From: an uncultured Tateyamaria sp.
GTDB lineage: Bacteria; Pseudomonadota; Alphaproteobacteria; Rhodobacterales; Rhodobacteraceae
Assembly: GCA_947501275.1 (NCBI GenBank)
Contig: CANMVD010000001.1
Location: forward strand, 496,001 to 560,000
Direction of reading: 5' to 3'
Length of the DNA stretch: 64,000 nt
Under the pieces are notes generated by a model. It saw only the letters and a list, made by a program, of their open reading frames with translations. It was not told the DNA's origin and ran no database searches. Made by a program: the position numbers and the translations under genes. Every line of letters starts with the position of its first letter. Positions within the stretch are counted from its first letter, which is position 1. Shown piece by piece: positions 37,392 through 45,542 of the stretch.

Positions 37392-39206
37392 CTAGGTGTT
37401 TTTTGCCCGGATACTGTCGCGATACAGTGCTTTCACCAGAGAAATCATCATGAACACCATGACAATCGTGAAGGGCAACGCACCGATGATCATCGCGTTT
37501 TGCAGTGCCCCAAAGGGATTTGCCTGCGCGCCACTATTGCCAGCGATGATCAATGCACCGATCACGGCGGTCAGGATCACCCCCCAGATGATCCGATGCT
37601 TGATGCCCGTTTCCTGTTCGCCGCCCGACATGATGGTATTCATGACCAAGATGCCCGAGTCAGCTGATGTGACAAGGAAGGTCATGATGAGGACAACGCA
37701 CATGATGGTGATGGCGGAAAGGAACCCACCTGAGATCATTTGCTCAAGCGTTGCAAACAGTTTGGCCGTGTTGGTTGCACCGATCAGGGAACCGGCAGCG
37801 TCGCCGTTCAATTCCAGATCAATCGCTGTGCCTCCCAGAATAGTCATCCACAAAAAGCAGACGATGGCAGGGGCAATCACGCAACCAAGAATGAACTCAC
37901 GCACTGTGCGCCCTTTGGAGATACGAGCCAGGAACAGCCCGACAAAGGGTGAGAAAGCGATCCACCACGCCCAGTAGAACGTCGTCCACCCGGCCTGCCA
38001 ACCGAACTGACGGCCTTGCTCACCCGCGGCATAGATGGCTGCCGCATCGAGCTCGGCTGCAGATGCAGGCAATCCTTCGGTGAATCCGGACAGTGACCCC
38101 CAGGGCGATGTGGCAGACCCGTAGATTGCCGTGACGTCTTCGGCGGGCAAGGCCTGCGCGGCTTCGGGAATGGCCGCTGCAAAGGCCTCTGCCGATTGCG
38201 GGCCATATGCTCCGAAAGACATCTGAACAAAGTGCAGGATGTAGTCGACCAGACCCACACCAAACGTTGTCATCGCAAAGAAGAATGAGCCAAAGATCAC
38301 GAAGGTCAAAAGCAGAATGACCGAAAGGACCAGATTAAGGTTCGACAAATACTTGATCCCCCGACCCACGCCTGACACCGCTGACAGGATCGACAGACCC
38401 ATGATCACCAGCAATGCTGCGATCAGACCAACCGTGCTGGGTTTCGGCGCTTCCGCGTCACCATTCATCAGCCACTCCATGCCCGACACGGCATAGACCC
38501 CATCCACAAATTGGCTCACACCGAACCCGATGGTGACCGAAACGCCCAATATCGTTGCCACGACGCCAAGCACATCAACCAGATGACCCAAGAAGCCGTT
38601 GGCCGTCTTACCCAGCAATGGGGTCAGCGCCGACCGGATGGTGAGCGGCATTTCACGGGTATAGGCATAATAGGCCAATGACAGGCCGGTCAGCACATAA
38701 ATCGCCCAAGCGTGGAAGCCGTAGTGCAGAAACGTGTAGCGATAGGCGGACTGCACTGCTTCTTGCGAATTTGCGGCCACTTCGCCTGACAAGATCACGG
38801 GGTTTGATCCCCAAAGGCCAAGCGGTTCTGCGGTCGCAAAGACCATCAGCCCGACACCCAGACCAGCCCCGAACATCATCGAAAACCAGGAAAAATTCGA
38901 AAACTCCGGCACGGTTTCTGCAGTTCCAAGCTTCTTGCTACCGGTTGCAGGCAGGATGGCCAGCACAAACAGGAAGAACGCGAACAAGCCGACCGAGATG
39001 ATGTAGAAGCTGTTGAACCCGTTCAACAGACTGCCATTCACCGCCGACAACACGCTACTGGCATTGCCGGGCCAGACCAGTGCCCAGACAACCAGCGCGA
39101 CCATGATCGCCTTACTGATCAAGGCAATAGGCAGGCTATAGCCTTCGTAGAAACCGGATGGAGCCTTTTCGATCTCCAGCTCGGTAAAGGGTGGTTTAAT
39201 AGACAT
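37392..39206 (-). CDS. BCCT family betaine/choline/carnitine-type transporter
   Basis: A 604-residue secondary carrier for zwitterionic, usually quaternary-ammonium solutes. About twelve helices; the family signature TTFYWAWWIAFSPFVGLFLA continues into RISKGRT, and FGAGLGVGLMVFATAEPLG with the YTFLHYGFHAWAIY block is typical. An unusual Ala-rich insertion (about residues 345-400) lies in an external loop. It is the last gene of a minus-strand set with DUF3726, a 567-residue protein, an M19-like hydrolase and an aldehyde dehydrogenase, so it probably imports their substrate. Confidence 0.92.
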   Translation of the reverse strand: MSIKPPFTELEIEKAPSGFYEGYSLPIALISKAIMVALVVWALVWPGNASSVLSAVNGSLLNGFNSFYIISVGLFAFFLFVLAILPATGSKKLGTAETVPEFSNFSWFSMMFGAGLGVGLMVFATAEPLGLWGSNPVILSGEVAANSQEAVQSAYRYTFLHYGFHAWAIYVLTGLSLAYYAYTREMPLTIRSALTPLLGKTANGFLGHLVDVLGVVATILGVSVTIGFGVSQFVDGVYAVSGMEWLMNGDAEAPKPSTVGLIAALLVIMGLSILSAVSGVGRGIKYLSNLNLVLSVILLLTFVIFGSFFFAMTTFGVGLVDYILHFVQMSFGAYGPQSAEAFAAAIPEAAQALPAEDVTAIYGSATSPWGSLSGFTEGLPASAAELDAAAIYAAGEQGRQFGWQAGWTTFYWAWWIAFSPFVGLFLARISKGRTVREFILGCVIAPAIVCFLWMTILGGTAIDLELNGDAAGSLIGATNTAKLFATLEQMISGGFLSAITIMCVVLIMTFLVTSADSGILVMNTIMSGGEQETGIKHRIIWGVILTAVIGALIIAGNSGAQANPFGALQNAMIIGALPFTIVMVFMMISLVKALYRDSIRAKNT

Positions 39207-39292: not shown

Positions 39293-39943
39293 CTAATCAT
39301 TGTCAGAGGCCCCGGTCCCCGCGCCCAGTAGGCGTGACGCTTCAGTCGCGGGGGCAAATGTGCGTTGTGCAAACCTGTCGAGTTTGTCCCAGACCTGCGG
39401 AGGGACATCACCACGCAACCCGGGCACTGCAGCGGCGTCCTTGCGTCTCTTCGCAGTTACGCAGACCAATTCATTGGCTTTACTCGTCTCGATTTCGTGC
39501 TGTTGATCGTCGAGCCACACCCGCTCACCATCGGTGTCGATCAGCAAGTTCTGCCAACGCACCTGCACGGGCGCATTGAGGTGGATCGCAGCCCAAGCGG
39601 CAAAAGGCACCACCAACAACGGGTATGAAACCTCCGCCATCTGAACTGGTTGCCCTTCGGCAAGGCGGTCAGCGCAATCGTTCAGCGCAGCACCAGCAGC
39701 AAGAGGGCATAGTTCTTGCGCAGGTGCATGCCATACCCCATCCAACGAGACAGGCGCGACTTGCGCGTGGGACACCCCGTCATTTTGTGCAAGCACGTCA
39801 GCCAAAAGCGCAGGACCCCCAAAGCCATGCGCGGCAAGCCACCGCGCCGCACGTGCAGCCTCCTCGGCCAAACCCCATGCCAATCCTGCCCCGCGCGCGG
39901 CCCGTTTTGCATGAGCCTCAATTTCGTTCAGAGACCGGTTCAT
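39293..39943 (-). CDS. DUF3726 family protein
   Basis: 216 residues matching DUF3726, function unknown. The start reads SLNEIEAHAKRAARGAGLAW GLAEEAARAARWLA, the family's conserved N-terminus. It is soluble, without signal peptide. Its ATG overlaps the stop of the 567-residue gene (ATGA), so they are translated together, and it precedes the BCCT transporter. A two-subunit enzyme with the 567-residue protein is possible. Confidence 0.85.
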   Translation of the reverse strand: MNRSLNEIEAHAKRAARGAGLAWGLAEEAARAARWLAAHGFGGPALLADVLAQNDGVSHAQVAPVSLDGVWHAPAQELCPLAAGAALNDCADRLAEGQPVQMAEVSYPLLVVPFAAWAAIHLNAPVQVRWQNLLIDTDGERVWLDDQQHEIETSKANELVCVTAKRRKDAAAVPGLRGDVPPQVWDKLDRFAQRTFAPATEASRLLGAGTGASDND

Positions 39944-41643
39944 TTCACCCCATCCGCGAGAGGTGGATAGGACCAGTCATGATCTGGGTCGTCCTGCAAC
40001 TCTTCCGGATAAGGCGCGTTGCCAAACATGCAGATGCGCACCCACCGATCAGATCGCGGGTCGAATTGGGTGGCACCAAAAAACGAGAGTTTGCAACGCA
40101 ACATATCAATTGGGACGAGATCGGAACCGATGGTGTTGTCGCGAATTTCGGCATAGGGCGCGCGATCTACGATCTGGGCACGTCTGACGCTGTGGCGGTG
40201 TTCAGGATGGGCCAAGAGGAAAGCTGCGAGGTGTCCGTCGCCATCCTCTTGTTTCAATGCCGCATACAGGGTCGCCGCGTCCCGCCCGGGTGCCAAAGGC
40301 TGCTCATATGCCGCAATCGGTTCTTCAAAACGTTCCCCGAGGCGGGGTTCCAGCTTCTCTTGTGAAACGTACCAGGCCCGTGCGCATTGGGATCTATCTG
40401 ACCAGTCAATCTCAAGCGCCCAACCGTAAACCCGCTCAAGCACGGCGCGCAGGTCAGCCACCCGCATTGTGCCATCAATGCGAAACGCATTCCGGTCTGT
40501 ATCTGACATCTGATCGGTCAGATGATCAACGAGCCTGCCGTAGGGTTCCAGCATCAGCGATGCCAGACATTCCTGTGCGTCCTCGCCCAAGGTGTTTTCG
40601 GCCCAAGCATGGAGCCGGTCCCAGGGATGCGGACCGCAGATAGCCGCCTCGGCCACGTGGGTCGTCACAACAGACAGATCTTCGCGCAACCGGTTCAACT
40701 TCTCTACCTGGATCGGATGTTCCGAGTGCCACAGGTCAGCGGAATAGACCGCGCGGATGAGCAATCTGCGAAACGTCTCAACCTCGGCCTCGGTTGCGGC
40801 AGGTACCGAACGTACAATCGCAATCGCCTCTTCCCGCGCCGATATCCAATTGTTGAGCAGTTTGGGGTGATTGATCAGAAACGGGGCCATGCCCAACCCC
40901 GTGGAATTGCCAATGCCGAGGCTGCGGGCAATGCCCGCGTCCAGCCTGACAGCCGCATCACCCCCTTTGAGATCAGCGATGTGCTGTACCAGATCACGCA
41001 CGTAGGTGCGGGTCAGAAAAACCGACAGCATCTCGATCTGGAAGGGGGCAGCGCATTCGGGCCGGTCCGCAATCATCTCGCGATCCGCAGCCCCCAGTTT
41101 GCCCGATCCGTAGACCGCCGTGGTGCGCATCAGATAGCCAACCTTGGCAATTTCGGCGGGGTCGGGCTGCATGCCCTCAGCAAGGCAAGAGACAACATGG
41201 TCCCACAACCGCACAGACCGGTTAGCGCGCGAGACGGACAGTTCTTTTTCACTTACCCGTCCTGCTTCCTGCAAAGGCACGTTTCGACGCAAACGCTCAA
41301 GATCGCTTGGCTCTGGCACACCATCAAACAACGTGAATGTGCTGTCCCAACGCATTGCTATCACCCGGTCGGAGCGTTCTTCAGGGGGCAGATCATGGCC
41401 AAAAGCAATCAAGGAATAGGTACGGTCCGGCGTATGCGCACAATAAACGGCGTGACCGACACCATTGGCGTCAAACTCAAAAACCGGCCGAGAAAACGTC
41501 CAGTTCTCGCGGATCATCCGACGGGTAAGGATCCGCATGAAGGACAGGCGGGACTGGTGGAAAGCCCCCAGACGCGACAACCGCATGACCAGCGCGGGGT
41601 CACGTTTGGCTATCGTCTGTGATGTATTCGCCTTTGGCCGCAT
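39940..41643 (-). CDS. Conserved protein of unknown function, 567 residues
   Basis: I do not recognise a named domain. It is a soluble protein without signal or membrane segment, rich in Arg/Glu/Asp, with a probable helical middle and no classical nucleotide-binding or metal motif that I can point to. Notable segments are YLMRTTAVYGSGKLGAADRE (about 170-190), SLGIGNSTGLGMAPFLINHP, and a final RIC MFGNAPYPEELQDDPDHDW. The Gly/Ser-rich block IGNSTGLGMAPF with the preceding GSGKLG recalls a phosphate- or cofactor-binding surface, but no more can be said. It is coupled by overlap to DUF3726 and follows the M19-like gene by 15 bases. Confidence 0.75.
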   Translation of the reverse strand: MRPKANTSQTIAKRDPALVMRLSRLGAFHQSRLSFMRILTRRMIRENWTFSRPVFEFDANGVGHAVYCAHTPDRTYSLIAFGHDLPPEERSDRVIAMRWDSTFTLFDGVPEPSDLERLRRNVPLQEAGRVSEKELSVSRANRSVRLWDHVVSCLAEGMQPDPAEIAKVGYLMRTTAVYGSGKLGAADREMIADRPECAAPFQIEMLSVFLTRTYVRDLVQHIADLKGGDAAVRLDAGIARSLGIGNSTGLGMAPFLINHPKLLNNWISAREEAIAIVRSVPAATEAEVETFRRLLIRAVYSADLWHSEHPIQVEKLNRLREDLSVVTTHVAEAAICGPHPWDRLHAWAENTLGEDAQECLASLMLEPYGRLVDHLTDQMSDTDRNAFRIDGTMRVADLRAVLERVYGWALEIDWSDRSQCARAWYVSQEKLEPRLGERFEEPIAAYEQPLAPGRDAATLYAALKQEDGDGHLAAFLLAHPEHRHSVRRAQIVDRAPYAEIRDNTIGSDLVPIDMLRCKLSFFGATQFDPRSDRWVRICMFGNAPYPEELQDDPDHDWSYPPLADGVK

Positions 41644-41657
41644 GACCTGCCCTCCCC

Positions 41658-42635
41658 TTAGATCAATGGTGTGAAATTTTCGGCGTAAAACCTGTGCCAG
41701 TTGTCGCCCATGATGCCCGCGACCTCCGTCTCGCTCAGCCCAGTGGCGCGCAGGCCAGTTTCGATTTTTCCAAAATCACGATTGTCGTTGAACCACCGCG
41801 GCATGGGCGGAAAACCAGGGGCGGCGGCTGAGCCCTCGCCATAGTCAATCTCTTTGCTCCAGCGGCCCACGCGCATCCATTCAACCACTGAGTCAGGGTG
41901 GTCCTGACACAGGTCGGTTCCGATCCCTAGGTTTTGCGCGCCATATTTTTCAGATGTCCGTGCGATCATTTCGCAAAAGTTTTCCAGCGTGCAGTCGGAC
42001 TTGCCCTTCAGGTGATGCGGATACACCGAGAAACCCATCATCCCCCCGTTCTCGACTACCGCACGGATCACATTGTCCTTCTTGTTGCGCAGCGCGGGCG
42101 ACCACTCATGAGGGTTGGCGTGGGTGATCGCGATGGGCCGTTCGGACAGCTCTGCCGCTTCGATGGTCGAGCGATCCGCAGAATGGCTCATGTCCACCAC
42201 CAGCCCCACGCGGTTCATTTCCTTGATTACCTGACGACCCATCCGCGTGATGCCGGTGTCTTCGGCCTCGTAACAGCCCGTCGCTAACAAGGACTGGTTG
42301 TTGTAGCTCAACTGCATGAAACGCGCGCCAAGAGTGTGCACGATCTCGACCAGGCCAATGTCGTCTTCGATCGGGCTGGGGTTTTGGAAACCGAAGAAGA
42401 TCGCCGTTTTGCCCTCGGCCTTGGCGCGGTTCACGTCCTGCGCCCACTCGCCCTTGAGGATGAGATCAGGAAACTGCTCGAACCAGCGGTTCCATTGCTC
42501 AAAATTCAGTACCGTTTCGCGGAAATTCTCATGATAGGCGATGGTGACATGTACGGCATCAACACCCCCCTCACGCATCTGGCGAAAGATTTTTTCCGAC
42601 CAGTTGGCATATTGCAGATTGTCGATCCGCATCAT
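41658..42635 (-). CDS. M19 (renal dipeptidase) family protein with an altered metal motif
   Basis: A TIM-barrel amidohydrolase of 325 residues in the membrane dipeptidase family. Present are GFQNPSPIEDD, the Asn-rich RFMQLSYNNQSLLATGCYE, VVDMSHSADRSTIEAAELSE, RPIAITHANPHEWSPALRNK and GTDLCQDHP, with C-terminal EVAGIMGDNWHRFY. The usual N-terminal HxD zinc motif is not seen: the protein begins MMRIDNLQYANWSEK. It may therefore bind one metal or none at that site. Its ATG overlaps the aldehyde dehydrogenase stop. The substrate is probably an amide or dipeptide-like zwitterion imported by the BCCT carrier. Confidence 0.85.
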   Translation of the reverse strand: MMRIDNLQYANWSEKIFRQMREGGVDAVHVTIAYHENFRETVLNFEQWNRWFEQFPDLILKGEWAQDVNRAKAEGKTAIFFGFQNPSPIEDDIGLVEIVHTLGARFMQLSYNNQSLLATGCYEAEDTGITRMGRQVIKEMNRVGLVVDMSHSADRSTIEAAELSERPIAITHANPHEWSPALRNKKDNVIRAVVENGGMMGFSVYPHHLKGKSDCTLENFCEMIARTSEKYGAQNLGIGTDLCQDHPDSVVEWMRVGRWSKEIDYGEGSAAAPGFPPMPRWFNDNRDFGKIETGLRATGLSETEVAGIMGDNWHRFYAENFTPLI

Positions 42636-44083
42636 TGCGGCGCGCCGGAAGCGATATAGGCCGTCTTTACGATCGTATAGAACTCCGCCGCCGTGCGACC
42701 CTGTTCGCGTGGTCCGTAAGAGCTGTCACTACGTCCGCCAAACGGCACATGATAATCGGTTCCAGCAGTGGGTAGATTGACCATCACGCAGCCCGATTTT
42801 GCGTTACGGCGGAAGTGTGTAGCACGGGCCAGATTGGTTGTGACGATCCCCGCCGTCAGGCCGAAGTTCGTGTCATTGACGACATGCAGCGCCTCGTCAT
42901 AGCTGGCCACAGGGATAACGCAGGCAAGCGGCGCGAACATCTCTTCGCGATTGATCCTCATGTCATTGGTGGTGCCAACAAAAACACCGGGCGACATGTA
43001 GTATCCATCCGTGGCCATCTCTAACCGCTGACCACCACACAAAAGCTCTGCCCCCTCAGAGGCCGCAAGGTCGACATAGGCAAGGTTCTCTTTCAATTGC
43101 TGCTCGGATACGACTGGACCCATCTGCGTGCCAGACTCAAGCGCATGACCCACTTTCATCGCCATTGCGCCCGCAACCAGCTTGTCGACGAATTGGTCAT
43201 GCACCGATTGGTGCACCACCAACCGAGACGACGCGGTGCACTTCTGACCCGAGCCGCCGAACGCACCGCCCAAAGCAAGGGTCACAGCCAGGTCCAGATC
43301 GGCGTCATCCATCACGGCCAGGGCGTTCTTGGATCCCATTTCCATCTGCACCCGCGTAAGGTTCTGGATTGCACTTGCCGCGATCCCCTTGCCCACTGGC
43401 ACCGAGCCGGTGAAACTGATGGCATCAACTTTGGAACTCTCGACCAACCGCTGACCAATGGCACTACCCGCACCCATCACCAGAGAGACAAGCCCCTTGG
43501 GAATATCTTGCCGCGAGATGATTTCAACCAGCGCAACTGCCGAGGCCGGGGTCACATTCGCCGGCTTCCAAACCACCGCATTGCCATAGCAAAGCGCGGG
43601 CGCAATCTTCCAAGATGCCGTCGCGGTGGGGAAGTTCCACGGGGAGATGACCGCCACAACGCCTACAGGCTCTCGGCGCACATCAATCTCGATCCCGTCC
43701 CGCACGCTATCGGCGGTATCGCCCATCTGGCGCAGGGTCTCAGCCGCATAGTAGGTAAAGAATTGCCCGGCGCGGTATACCTCACCTTTCCCTTCGGCGA
43801 GCGGCTTACCCTCTTCCCGCGCCAGCAAGATGCCGAGCTCTTCCGCGCGTTGCATCATTTCGGTGCCGATGGCCATCAGCACATTGTACTTCCGCTCGAT
43901 CCCGTAAGCGGCCCACTCGGCCTGCGCCTTTTGGGCCTGCATGAGAGTTGCATCCAACTGATCTGTCGATGCCTGCGCAAACATCCCGATCAAATCGCTC
44001 AGATCTGAAGGATTGCGATTTTCTATCTCAGAAACACCCGCCACCCATTCGCCAGCGATGTAGTTCAATTTGGTGTCCTGCAT
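42632..44083 (-). CDS. NAD(P)-dependent aldehyde dehydrogenase
   Basis: A 483-residue aldehyde dehydrogenase. Seen are VISPWNFPTATASWKIAPAL (cofactor), FTGSVPVGKGIA, the catalytic Glu in VQMEMGSKNALAVMDD and Cys in GSGQKCTASSRLV, and a late FGGRSDSSYGPREQG. It is closest in style to semialdehyde dehydrogenases such as alpha-ketoglutarate semialdehyde dehydrogenase. The start at 44083 has AAGGGA upstream. It follows a LysR gene by 94 bp and is coupled to the M19-like gene. Confidence 0.9.
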   Translation of the reverse strand: MQDTKLNYIAGEWVAGVSEIENRNPSDLSDLIGMFAQASTDQLDATLMQAQKAQAEWAAYGIERKYNVLMAIGTEMMQRAEELGILLAREEGKPLAEGKGEVYRAGQFFTYYAAETLRQMGDTADSVRDGIEIDVRREPVGVVAVISPWNFPTATASWKIAPALCYGNAVVWKPANVTPASAVALVEIISRQDIPKGLVSLVMGAGSAIGQRLVESSKVDAISFTGSVPVGKGIAASAIQNLTRVQMEMGSKNALAVMDDADLDLAVTLALGGAFGGSGQKCTASSRLVVHQSVHDQFVDKLVAGAMAMKVGHALESGTQMGPVVSEQQLKENLAYVDLAASEGAELLCGGQRLEMATDGYYMSPGVFVGTTNDMRINREEMFAPLACVIPVASYDEALHVVNDTNFGLTAGIVTTNLARATHFRRNAKSGCVMVNLPTAGTDYHVPFGGRSDSSYGPREQGRTAAEFYTIVKTAYIASGAPQ

Positions 44084-44176
44084 GGTGTATCCCTTCAATC
44101 CGGCGGCTCAGGCGCGCGCATGGAAAGGTTACTCCTTCAAGAAGATTCAGGCTTTCAGAATAAATTGTAATTTTCT

Positions 44177-45082
44177 TCAGAGTTTCTGAAACTCCGCCTG
44201 AGGCACCAAACTGCCATCCCGCTTCATCTCGTTGATCAGTTTCAGGAACTCCCGAGCAGCTGGCATCAATAGGTTGTTGGGACGGGACATCAGATGCACG
44301 GTCCGCCGAGCGGTCACATCGGCCAGCGGCAAAAACGCAAATTCATCGAGCAGGTTGGCAACAACCAGACGCGGCAACACGGTTATCCCGACGCCTTGCC
44401 GGACCAGCCCCAGAAGCGAAGCCGTATTTGGAACCATCAGCCGCGACCGGGCAAGGATGGGCGCAAAATCCGGATCCGTGATTTGCTTGCACAAACCATT
44501 TGCGATGATGGTCTGGTCGCCGATGGTGCGCCAGTCAAGCTGGGTCCAGCGCTCGACAAGGGGGTGGTCCTTGCGACACACCATACCGAACGCATCGCTG
44601 AACAATTCTATGCGGCGCATACCCTCAACGACGGGAAGTGACCCAATGCCAACATCGGCCCGCTCCCGATCCAGTTCACGCGCGATTGCATCCGAGTCCA
44701 TATCCCGCAAATCGATCTGAACTTTCGGGAACTTCTCAGCGAATTTGAAAATCACCGGCGGCAGCACCGTTGTCGCCACCGATGGCGTTGCCGCCAGTCT
44801 TAGAAAGCCCAGCTCTGAGCGTGCCAACCCTTCGATTACAGATACGGTGTTTTCGAAATGCGCCACCTCGCGGCGGGCTTCGGCCAAAATAAGTTCACCA
44901 ACTGGTGTCAATCGGGATTTCCGGGCCGTTTCGAACAGGGCAGAGCCGACATGGTCTTCAAATTGTTTGAGCATCATGGACACCGCCGACGGCGTCCGCC
45001 CAAGCGCATCTGCGGCCTCAGCCAAACTACCGTGTGTGGCAACCATTGTGAAACATCTGAGCATGTCGATCTTGATTGCCAA
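44177..45082 (-). CDS. LysR-family regulator of the BCCT/M19/aldehyde dehydrogenase set
   Basis: 301 residues. HTH is MLRCFTMVATHGSLAEAADALGRTPSAVSMMLKQFEDHVGSALFE; the effector domain follows. I chose TTG at 45082 (preceded by AGGAAG at good spacing) over the ATG inside the HTH; the frame continues to 45253 without support. It is head-to-head with ridA and just upstream of the catabolic genes, so it probably controls both, as is usual for the family. Confidence 0.88.
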   Translation of the reverse strand: MAIKIDMLRCFTMVATHGSLAEAADALGRTPSAVSMMLKQFEDHVGSALFETARKSRLTPVGELILAEARREVAHFENTVSVIEGLARSELGFLRLAATPSVATTVLPPVIFKFAEKFPKVQIDLRDMDSDAIARELDRERADVGIGSLPVVEGMRRIELFSDAFGMVCRKDHPLVERWTQLDWRTIGDQTIIANGLCKQITDPDFAPILARSRLMVPNTASLLGLVRQGVGITVLPRLVVANLLDEFAFLPLADVTARRTVHLMSRPNNLLMPAAREFLKLINEMKRDGSLVPQAEFQKL

Positions 45083-45200
45083 CTTAAGACTTCCTGAAGT
45101 TGATTCAATGAAATCGAGTTTGCCTGAATTTCTTTCTCGTGACCATATGGCAATCACAGTATCCTGCTGAGGATGCATAATGACATCACAAGGAAACGCC

Positions 45201-45542
45201 ATGATCGAACGCATCGACACAGGCATACGCTCTTCGAAAATCGTGAAACACAACGGCGTCGTTTATCTGACCGGTCAAGTCGCTGACGGAGATACAATTC
45301 AGGAGCAGGTCCGGACCTGTTTGGGCAACATTGATGCCCTGCTGGAGCAAGCTGGATCGTCCCGGGACAAGATGTTGCGCGTAACGATTTGGTTGGCTGA
45401 CATGAAGGACTTCGACGGCTTGAACGAGGTCTGGAACGACTGGGTGCCGACAGGTCACGCCCCTGCCCGCGCCTGCGGTGAAGCCAAACTGGCCCGCCCC
45501 GAACTGAAGGTCGAATTCATCGTGGATGCGGCCTATTCCTGA
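45201..45542 (+). CDS. RidA family protein
   Basis: 113 residues of the Rid/YjgF superfamily, enamine/imine deaminases or their relatives. [18 protein letters not shown], the active-site region ending in [20 protein letters not shown], and the Arg in [20 protein letters not shown] (as Arg before the strand) are present. ATG at 45201 has AAGGA upstream. It is divergent from the LysR gene of the BCCT set, implying an enamine or imine intermediate in that pathway. Confidence 0.88.

Follow-up and report, generated by a model that had tools for sequence, protein, structure and literature searches.

A family-less protein and its DUF3726 partner as a candidate enzyme pair for opening the ring of an N-methylated pyridinium osmolyte

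What might be the function of a 567-residue protein in which no domain is recognised, and why does its gene overlap that of a domain of unknown function, DUF3726? Here, we address this question for a locus of an uncultured Tateyamaria sp. (Rhodobacteraceae; assembly GCA_947501275.1, contig CANMVD010000001.1, positions 496,001 to 560,000), a stretch of 64,000 nucleotides that we call the window and to which the coordinates below refer. The two genes, the first of which encodes what we call protein A, are the following:

39940..41643, (-) strand: protein A, 567 residues, ATG to TGA; family-less; proposed catalytic (ring-opening) subunit
39293..39943, (-) strand: DUF3726 protein (PF12525), 216 residues; modelled as a shortened Ldh_2 fold

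We propose that A and DUF3726 form one enzyme, and that the operon around them takes up an N-methylated pyridinium osmolyte, most likely homarine (N-methylpicolinate), and degrades it to N-methylglutamate, with A-DUF3726 opening the ring. We regard this reading as evenly poised between right and wrong; the complex, the substrate and every reaction step are what we infer from the genes, their conservation and their neighbours.

A is a real protein family and not a chance frame. The long intact frame picked out in a sequence-only reading of this locus recurs within the family: A is present in 70 of the 149 sampled genomes of the bacterial family (E<=0.001; source genome included), mostly near full length. 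Among the matches listed, two contain a single in-frame TGA and a few, at the ends of contigs, are fragments. It is also found in 53 of the 385 genomes sampled from the class and in 29 of the 398 sampled from the phylum, samples that share genomes with each other and with the family sample. In a set of related loci, 80 of which were retained from 84 matches, the named sources include Roseovarius, Ruegeria, Pseudovibrio, Hoeflea, a gammaproteobacterial symbiont of a gutless worm, and metagenome-assembled genomes of Acidimicrobiales. Furthermore, 168 of 72,556 plasmid records carry A, those of Phaeobacter and Aminobacter among them, with relatives in Sinorhizobium meliloti (about 30% identity) and the haloarchaeon Natrinema versiforme (32%). 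In the annotated plasmid rows listed (20 and 60 of the 168), A is labelled "hypothetical protein"; one of the matches reaches into the adjoining dipeptidase as well. When viral contigs were scanned with two peptide patterns, 5 stretches matched one pattern and none encoded an A relative.

The same reading could name no domain or motif in A, and searches of the databases agree: there were 0 Pfam families at E<=1, the flavin monooxygenase/reductase domains of the TgnB type included, and 0 NCBIfam models at E<=0.1, and phmmer retrieved no PDB chain at E<=10. A profile of 21 rows yielded 4 weak matches among PDB sequences (best E 0.5), mostly to coiled-coil chains, and Pfam recognised nothing in 8 of 10 A homologues, the other two having one sub-cut-off match each (E 0.16 and 0.58). 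The AlphaFold2 model of A, built from 55 aligned sequences, reached a mean predicted local distance difference test (pLDDT) of 84 and a predicted TM-score of 0.89, with confidence below 50 at residues 179-181, 249-251 and 426-433, all within conserved blocks, and at both ends. Searched with Foldseek against 350,542 PDB chains, it gave a best E of 0.38 (probability 0.07), so that the confident match to a known enzyme that would have contradicted the idea of a novel one did not appear; VIA returned a best Z of 3.7 over 106 residues (712 chains aligned), and no viral model in BFVD scored below E 0.26. START-like and argininosuccinate-lyase-like rows in the VIA output were set aside, Z of 3.7 and below being at noise level. 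Given that the model is probably multi-domain and was folded as one chain, we describe A as a predicted structure with no detectable match, not as a new fold.

Two of the conserved blocks of A are loops. In an alignment of 202 sequences, with archaeal and rhizobial relatives in and partial copies and duplicates out, the Gly/Ser-rich blocks that had merely looked conserved proved to be so: G181, G184, G243, G245, N246 and G251 each occur in at least 200 of the sequences. Present in all 202 are R93, D100, R129, S143, L154, G157, Y170, R173, G184, R212, G243, G245, N246, G251, W424, S427, R434, R488 and G523. No Cys reaches 70%, and H259 (199 of 202) is the single near-invariant His, five others being at 72 to 89%, which argues against a metal centre bound by Cys or by several His. 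The Arg/Gly-rich loops are, to judge from this pattern, a likely site; the conserved segments are:

41092..41109, (-) strand: conserved loop of A, residues 179-184 (GSGKLG); model confidence below 50 at 179-181
40891..40917, (-) strand: conserved loop of A, residues 243-251 (GIGNSTGLG); model confidence below 50 at 249-251
40336..40374, (-) strand: conserved block of A, residues 424-436 (WYVSQEKLEPRLG); model confidence below 50 at 426-433

The coupling of A to DUF3726 proved to be much tighter than the ATGA overlap that had first suggested it. That overlap, in which the stop of A and the start of DUF3726 share four nucleotides, is indeed there (positions 39943-39940), and the downstream protein scores 79.8 bits with PF12525 (cut-off 22.1). 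In 299 genomes of the phylum, PF12525 has 22 matches, each of them immediately next to a copy of A. The second A copies of three genomes (the source genome G000, G055 and G399) have no PF12525 match alongside, their partners having diverged beyond the reach of the Pfam model. With wider profiles, run on all six frames, a gene of DUF3726 type was located no more than 1 kb downstream of A in 150 of 151 dereplicated loci, which remained of 173 with A after removal of 11 that were 95% identical and 11 with short flanks (at least 1.5 kb was required on each side). One of these profiles (D2) was built from 13 partners chosen for adjoining A, so that those loci are positive by construction. The exception is a single 868-residue frame (L207:8550-11153) with a weakly DUF3726-like tail (E 1.6e-4 over 90 columns), and could be a naturally fused form of A and a DUF3726-like protein. 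Compared with the DUF3726 profile, the rhizobial partners match at E 5.5e-5 (probability 66%) and the gammaproteobacterial and archaeal ones at 1.2e-13; the alignment A5 mixes rhizobial, gammaproteobacterial/archaeal and other partners. Such coupling of the genes fits a complex, without fixing its make-up.

What DUF3726 is can be answered more fully. Its model (pLDDT 92.4) retrieves only members of the Ldh_2 superfamily in rows 1-23 of the Foldseek output, the best at E 3.8e-4 and the sole row at E<=0.001, and VIA aligns it to 15 Ldh_2-type entries at Z 10.9 to 13.3 over 166 to 191 residues, the best unrelated fold being at Z 4.2. This superfamily (PF02615) comprises the type-2 malate/lactate dehydrogenases, YiaK, AllD and Delta1-piperideine-2-carboxylate reductase; the closest alignment, to 3uoe, spans 189 residues (Z 13.3, root-mean-square deviation 3.4). 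DUF3726, with 216 residues against about 335 in Ldh_2, aligns over the full length of the Ldh_2-type chains and is about a third shorter. Profile comparison with the Ldh_2 proteins encoded in the operons of relatives gave E 9.2e-5 (probability 59%) for DUF3726 and E 8e-8 (94%) for the divergent partners. A itself was also considered as an Ldh_2 relative, and rejected, the corresponding comparison giving E 0.49. In Ldh_2 enzymes, the GTNP motif has a role in dinucleotide binding and the SHG motif holds the catalytic His. GTNP is found in 0 of 53 DUF3726 sequences against 21 of 21 operon Ldh_2 proteins, and SHG in 8 of 53 against 17 of 21; these counts, like that of the tail below, are of string patterns irrespective of aligned position. 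Thus, DUF3726 is, as modelled, a shortened Ldh_2 fold that lacks the GTNP motif. A further element is its C terminus, which is disordered in the model of DUF3726 alone and may dock on A:

39296..39325, (-) strand: C-terminal tail of DUF3726, residues 207-216; ending of SR-GAG-DND type in 40 of 53 aligned rows

A full-length Ldh_2 gene often follows DUF3726 in relatives, which makes duplication within the operon a plausible origin. On a Natrinema versiforme plasmid (L256:10112-15306), a haloarchaeal A gene stands with an Ldh_2-like partner and a BCCT (betaine/carnitine/choline transporter) gene. With 36.2 bits, this partner falls just short of the Pfam cut-off for Ldh_2 (38.8 bits). No other partner scanned comes nearer to a full Ldh_2, and this one may represent an intermediate in the evolution of DUF3726.

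The rest of the gene row, on which the sequence-only reading was silent, is essential context for A. On the (-) strand, the order is LysR, aldehyde dehydrogenase (ALDH), M19, A, DUF3726 and BCCT, with Ldh_2 often added in relatives; M19 and A are separated by 14 nt.

44177..45253, (-) strand: LysR-family regulator (Pfam)
42632..44098, (-) strand: ALDH (NCBIfam), overlapping M19 by 4 nt
41658..42635, (-) strand: M19 "membrane dipeptidase" family protein; closest solved relative 2i5g; usual H.D and EG.H motifs gone
37392..39206, (-) strand: BCCT family transporter (Pfam, NCBIfam)
45180..45542, (+) strand: RidA-family protein, divergent (Pfam)

The listed start of LysR is probably too far upstream, as the median length of related genes is 298 residues. 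The family match of the BCCT transporter is split into two stretches, so that it seems to hold an inserted segment of several tens of residues. In NCBIfam, ALDH scores highest, although below cut-off in both cases, with the models for 2,5-dioxovalerate and alpha-ketoglutaric semialdehyde dehydrogenases; the substrates of such enzymes are 2-oxo semialdehydes of five carbons, in keeping with a route to the glutamate skeleton.

The M19 protein is almost as constant a partner of A as DUF3726, with its gene no more than 2.5 kb away and in the same orientation in 136 of the 151 loci. Its membership of the family is clear (PF01244, 237.2 bits, cut-off 26), and it matches 2i5g at E 3.5e-55 over residues 4-316 of 325; this structure, listed only as "amidohydrolase", we take to be PA5396 of Pseudomonas aeruginosa, presumably from a glycine betaine region unlike the gene setting here. 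The metal ligands of M19 dipeptidases lie in the motifs H.D and EG.H. By pattern, H.D occurs in 6 of 119 operon members and EG.H in none, with D-x-S/T-H in all 119, and the EGGHS of renal dipeptidase aligns with QNPSP. With the canonical motifs lost, M19 is unlikely to be an ordinary two-metal dipeptidase and is probably a changed hydrolase.

In the 129 loci that have 6 kb of flank to either side, the neighbours include ALDH in 73, a LysR-type gene in 64, BCCT in 42, Ldh_2 in 42 and RidA in 24, and BCCT or betaine-type ABC transporter genes recur beside A in relatives. Together with RidA, these transporters suggest uptake and catabolism of a betaine-like nitrogen compound. A more specific lead comes from Ruegeria sp. 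TM1040 and Phaeobacter porticola, where a complete beta-delta-alpha-gamma operon resembling sarcosine oxidase, with an AraC-type regulator, adjoins the gene set. Counterparts of the gene set in annotated genomes carry the locus tags TM1040_RS02315-RS02345 and PGA1_RS18990-RS19015. By NCBIfam, its alpha subunit exceeds the soxA cut-off and gamma and delta fall below theirs; similar arrangements occur in 8 of 94 loci with the anchor (clusters 14, 10 and 12, with Pfam run on some of them). P. porticola also has genes for a ring-hydroxylating dioxygenase, a VanB-type reductase and an FAD-dependent oxidoreductase nearby, and in the incomplete gene tables of these two stretches none carries an annotation for the use of methylamine or dimethylamine. 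In the source genome, a 73% identical relative of the alpha subunit is encoded in a row with genes for a GcvT-like protein, a haem-dependent N-demethylase, an AraC-type regulator, alpha and beta subunits, and two small proteins in the remaining subunit positions; the AraC-type proteins of this row and of the operon beside A are 48% identical. The order dmm-tmaR-mgd of R. pomeroyi is that of the source-genome row, and Mgd is stated to participate in homarine catabolism (both from the portion of PMC13390433 available). By orthology with the source-genome row and the synteny of that row, the four-subunit operon beside A looks like N-methylglutamate dehydrogenase. A and an Mgd-like subunit are at most 7 kb apart in 4 of the 30 genomes that have both, against about 0.1 expected, the 7 kb limit having been chosen after the positions were seen. 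Across the 149 genomes, 30 have both, 14 Mgd only, 40 A only and 65 neither, which is above expectation (p 0.001, phylogeny not controlled); the threshold for Mgd-like subunits (about 61% identity, plus one partial match at 75%) was set by eye after seeing the list.

These genes can be arranged into a scheme in which A-DUF3726 is placed at the first step by exclusion, being the only part without a known reaction. The osmolyte would enter through BCCT at this locus and through betaine-type ABC transporters in some relatives. A, as the catalytic subunit, with DUF3726 as a structural or active-site-completing subunit shrunk from an Ldh_2 dehydrogenase, would then convert homarine + O2 + 2[H] to C7H9NO4, cutting the ring between C5 and C6 to leave an N-formyl group and a C5 aldehyde. 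ALDH would oxidise the C5 aldehyde to the acid, and the M19 amidohydrolase would remove formate. Ldh_2, where present, would reduce the resulting N-methyl imine/enamine (N-methyl dehydroglutamate) to N-methylglutamate; alternatively, hydrolysis to 2-oxoglutarate and methylamine could occur with the help of RidA. N-methylglutamate dehydrogenase would be the last step. As proposed, the scheme is balanced on paper, gives every gene a single use and runs parallel to the breakdown of trigonelline.

Several observations weigh against this scheme. A has no recognised cofactor motif, which makes the O2/NAD(P)H reaction a guess, and DUF3726, without GTNP in any of the 53 sequences, is unlikely to bring in NAD(P)H. 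Genes assigned to later steps are at times missing from the neighbourhood: M19 in 15 of the 151 loci and ALDH in 56 of the 129. The second A copy of the source genome (L132, G000:C3:38959-40569; 46% identical), which has a DUF3726-like gene alongside, falls in another clade among the tree rows listed, and neither M19 nor ALDH was found at its locus. On an S. meliloti plasmid (L255, 9220-21165), where a distant trio of A, DUF3726-like and M19 genes stands with two RidA genes, the neighbours are IclR, an ABC transporter, a transaminase and a succinate-semialdehyde dehydrogenase, so that substrates probably differ among clades. The link to Mgd is likewise incomplete, given that mgd-like adjacency is confined to few lineages, 14 of the 44 Mgd-like genomes lack A, 40 of the 70 genomes with A lack an Mgd-like subunit at the chosen threshold, and the four-subunit enzyme could, on its sequence, be a sarcosine oxidase. 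Finally, growth of R. pomeroyi, which may or may not carry A, is weaker on homarine than on trigonelline according to the available part of PMC8269262.

Two further observations concern these distant loci themselves. Several copies related to the second one of the source genome adjoin genes that resemble, by eye, truA and ycjX, as if in a fixed chromosomal region. The S. meliloti locus is, by its gene content, a separate catabolic unit; its ABC transporter has a binding protein of the SBP_bac_8 type and in our judgement is polyamine- or opine-like. The S. meliloti locus tags that we take to belong to a related pSymB cluster have one passing mention in the literature searched.

How far do these points favour other explanations? 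The breadth of neighbourhoods suggests a general N-heterocycle or amide enzyme with clade-specific substrates, homarine in marine bacteria, trigonelline or an opine-like amine, for instance, in rhizobia, and yet another in the second clade of the source family. IclR, RidA and an ABC transporter of another type accompany A in S. meliloti and Alloyangia, with a transaminase and succinate-semialdehyde dehydrogenase in the row or close to it, and the second A copy of the source genome falls in another clade and has no M19 found nearby; nevertheless, most loci retain the core trio of M19, A and a DUF3726-like gene, and this points to a common chemistry. We consider such specialisation quite plausible, a little short of an even chance, and it can be true together with the homarine reading. 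The same pathway logic could also apply to a different N-methylated osmolyte that ends in N-methylglutamate or sarcosine, such as proline betaine via N-methylproline or another betaine, A-DUF3726 then carrying out demethylation, dehydrogenation or C-N cleavage. BCCT and ProX-type transporters serve betaines in general, the adjoining four-subunit enzyme is merely sarcosine-oxidase-like by NCBIfam, and P. porticola has the dioxygenase, VanB-type reductase and FAD-dependent oxidoreductase mentioned above. However, the known routes for betaines rely on Rieske, flavin or corrinoid enzymes, and no enzyme of these types accompanies A constantly; the N-methylproline route would need neither an M19 hydrolase nor A, so that we judge this explanation unlikely.

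The steps, rather than the substrate, might be distributed differently, with the atypical M19 performing the first reaction and A-DUF3726 acting later, for example on the opened chain as a hydrolase or lyase of unusual type, or serving as an accessory factor. The constancy of M19, nearly that of DUF3726, and the loss of its canonical motifs, which points to a changed reaction, speak for this order of events. Yet A and a DUF3726-type gene are kept in 14 of the 15 loci without nearby M19, the fifteenth being the possible fusion, and so many residues of A are invariant in 202 of 202 sequences that an accessory protein would hardly need them; we therefore think this arrangement improbable. Returning to A-DUF3726 as the ring-opening enzyme, a bolder version would make the two the founding pair of a new enzyme class for N-methylpyridinium ring opening, with a fold not in solved structures, a small subunit that was once a dehydrogenase, has lost its cofactor site and now completes the active site through its conserved disordered tail, and other substrates in rhizobia and haloarchaea. 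This is possible, but we are inclined to doubt it.

If A-DUF3726 does open the homarine ring, the A gene, with its presence in 70 of 149 family genomes, would be a marker for the turnover of carbon and nitrogen from homarine, an abundant metabolite of the sea, and a possibly new fold for a hard reaction would be open to enzymology. Regardless of the substrate, a domain of unknown function is accounted for by a shrunken Ldh_2 fold, which also hints at where the contact with A may lie.

Among the closest known systems is trigonelline degradation (TgnA/TgnB), the substrate of which is, like homarine, an N-methylpyridinium acid, and an isomer of it. That route proceeds through an N-formyl intermediate, semialdehyde oxidation and hydrolysis, the latter two of which would parallel ALDH and M19 here. 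The trigonelline ring is opened by the oxygenase system TgnA/TgnB (Perchat et al. 2018, cited in PMC8269262), which, as argued in the available part of PMC8269262, is unlikely to act on homarine. By contrast, Pfam identifies neither a flavin monooxygenase nor a flavin reductase in the gene row described here, and A matches none of its families. A preprint on homarine reportedly described a six-gene operon, homABCDER (five genes plus a regulator), that occurs in Rhodobacterales, SAR11 and SAR116 and yields products that include N-methylglutamate. The set found here (LysR, ALDH, M19, A, DUF3726, and Ldh_2 or transporter) may be that very operon. Homarine catabolism is also the subject of Ferrer-Gonzalez et al. 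2026 (Nat Microbiol, doi 10.1038/s41564-026-02313-7), the work cited in PMC13390433 for the role of Mgd, and that paper may already name these genes. In the literature searched, neither "DUF3726" nor "homABCDER" occurs as a name; the homarine literature, represented mostly by listings, offers there no gene-level account besides one sentence in PMC13390433, and the available portions of PMC10041152, PMC9723723 and PMC9038784 name no such genes. Set beside these systems, the Ldh_2 fold of DUF3726, its near-universal pairing with A, the altered M19, and the reach of the gene set into rhizobia and archaea are results of the present analysis.

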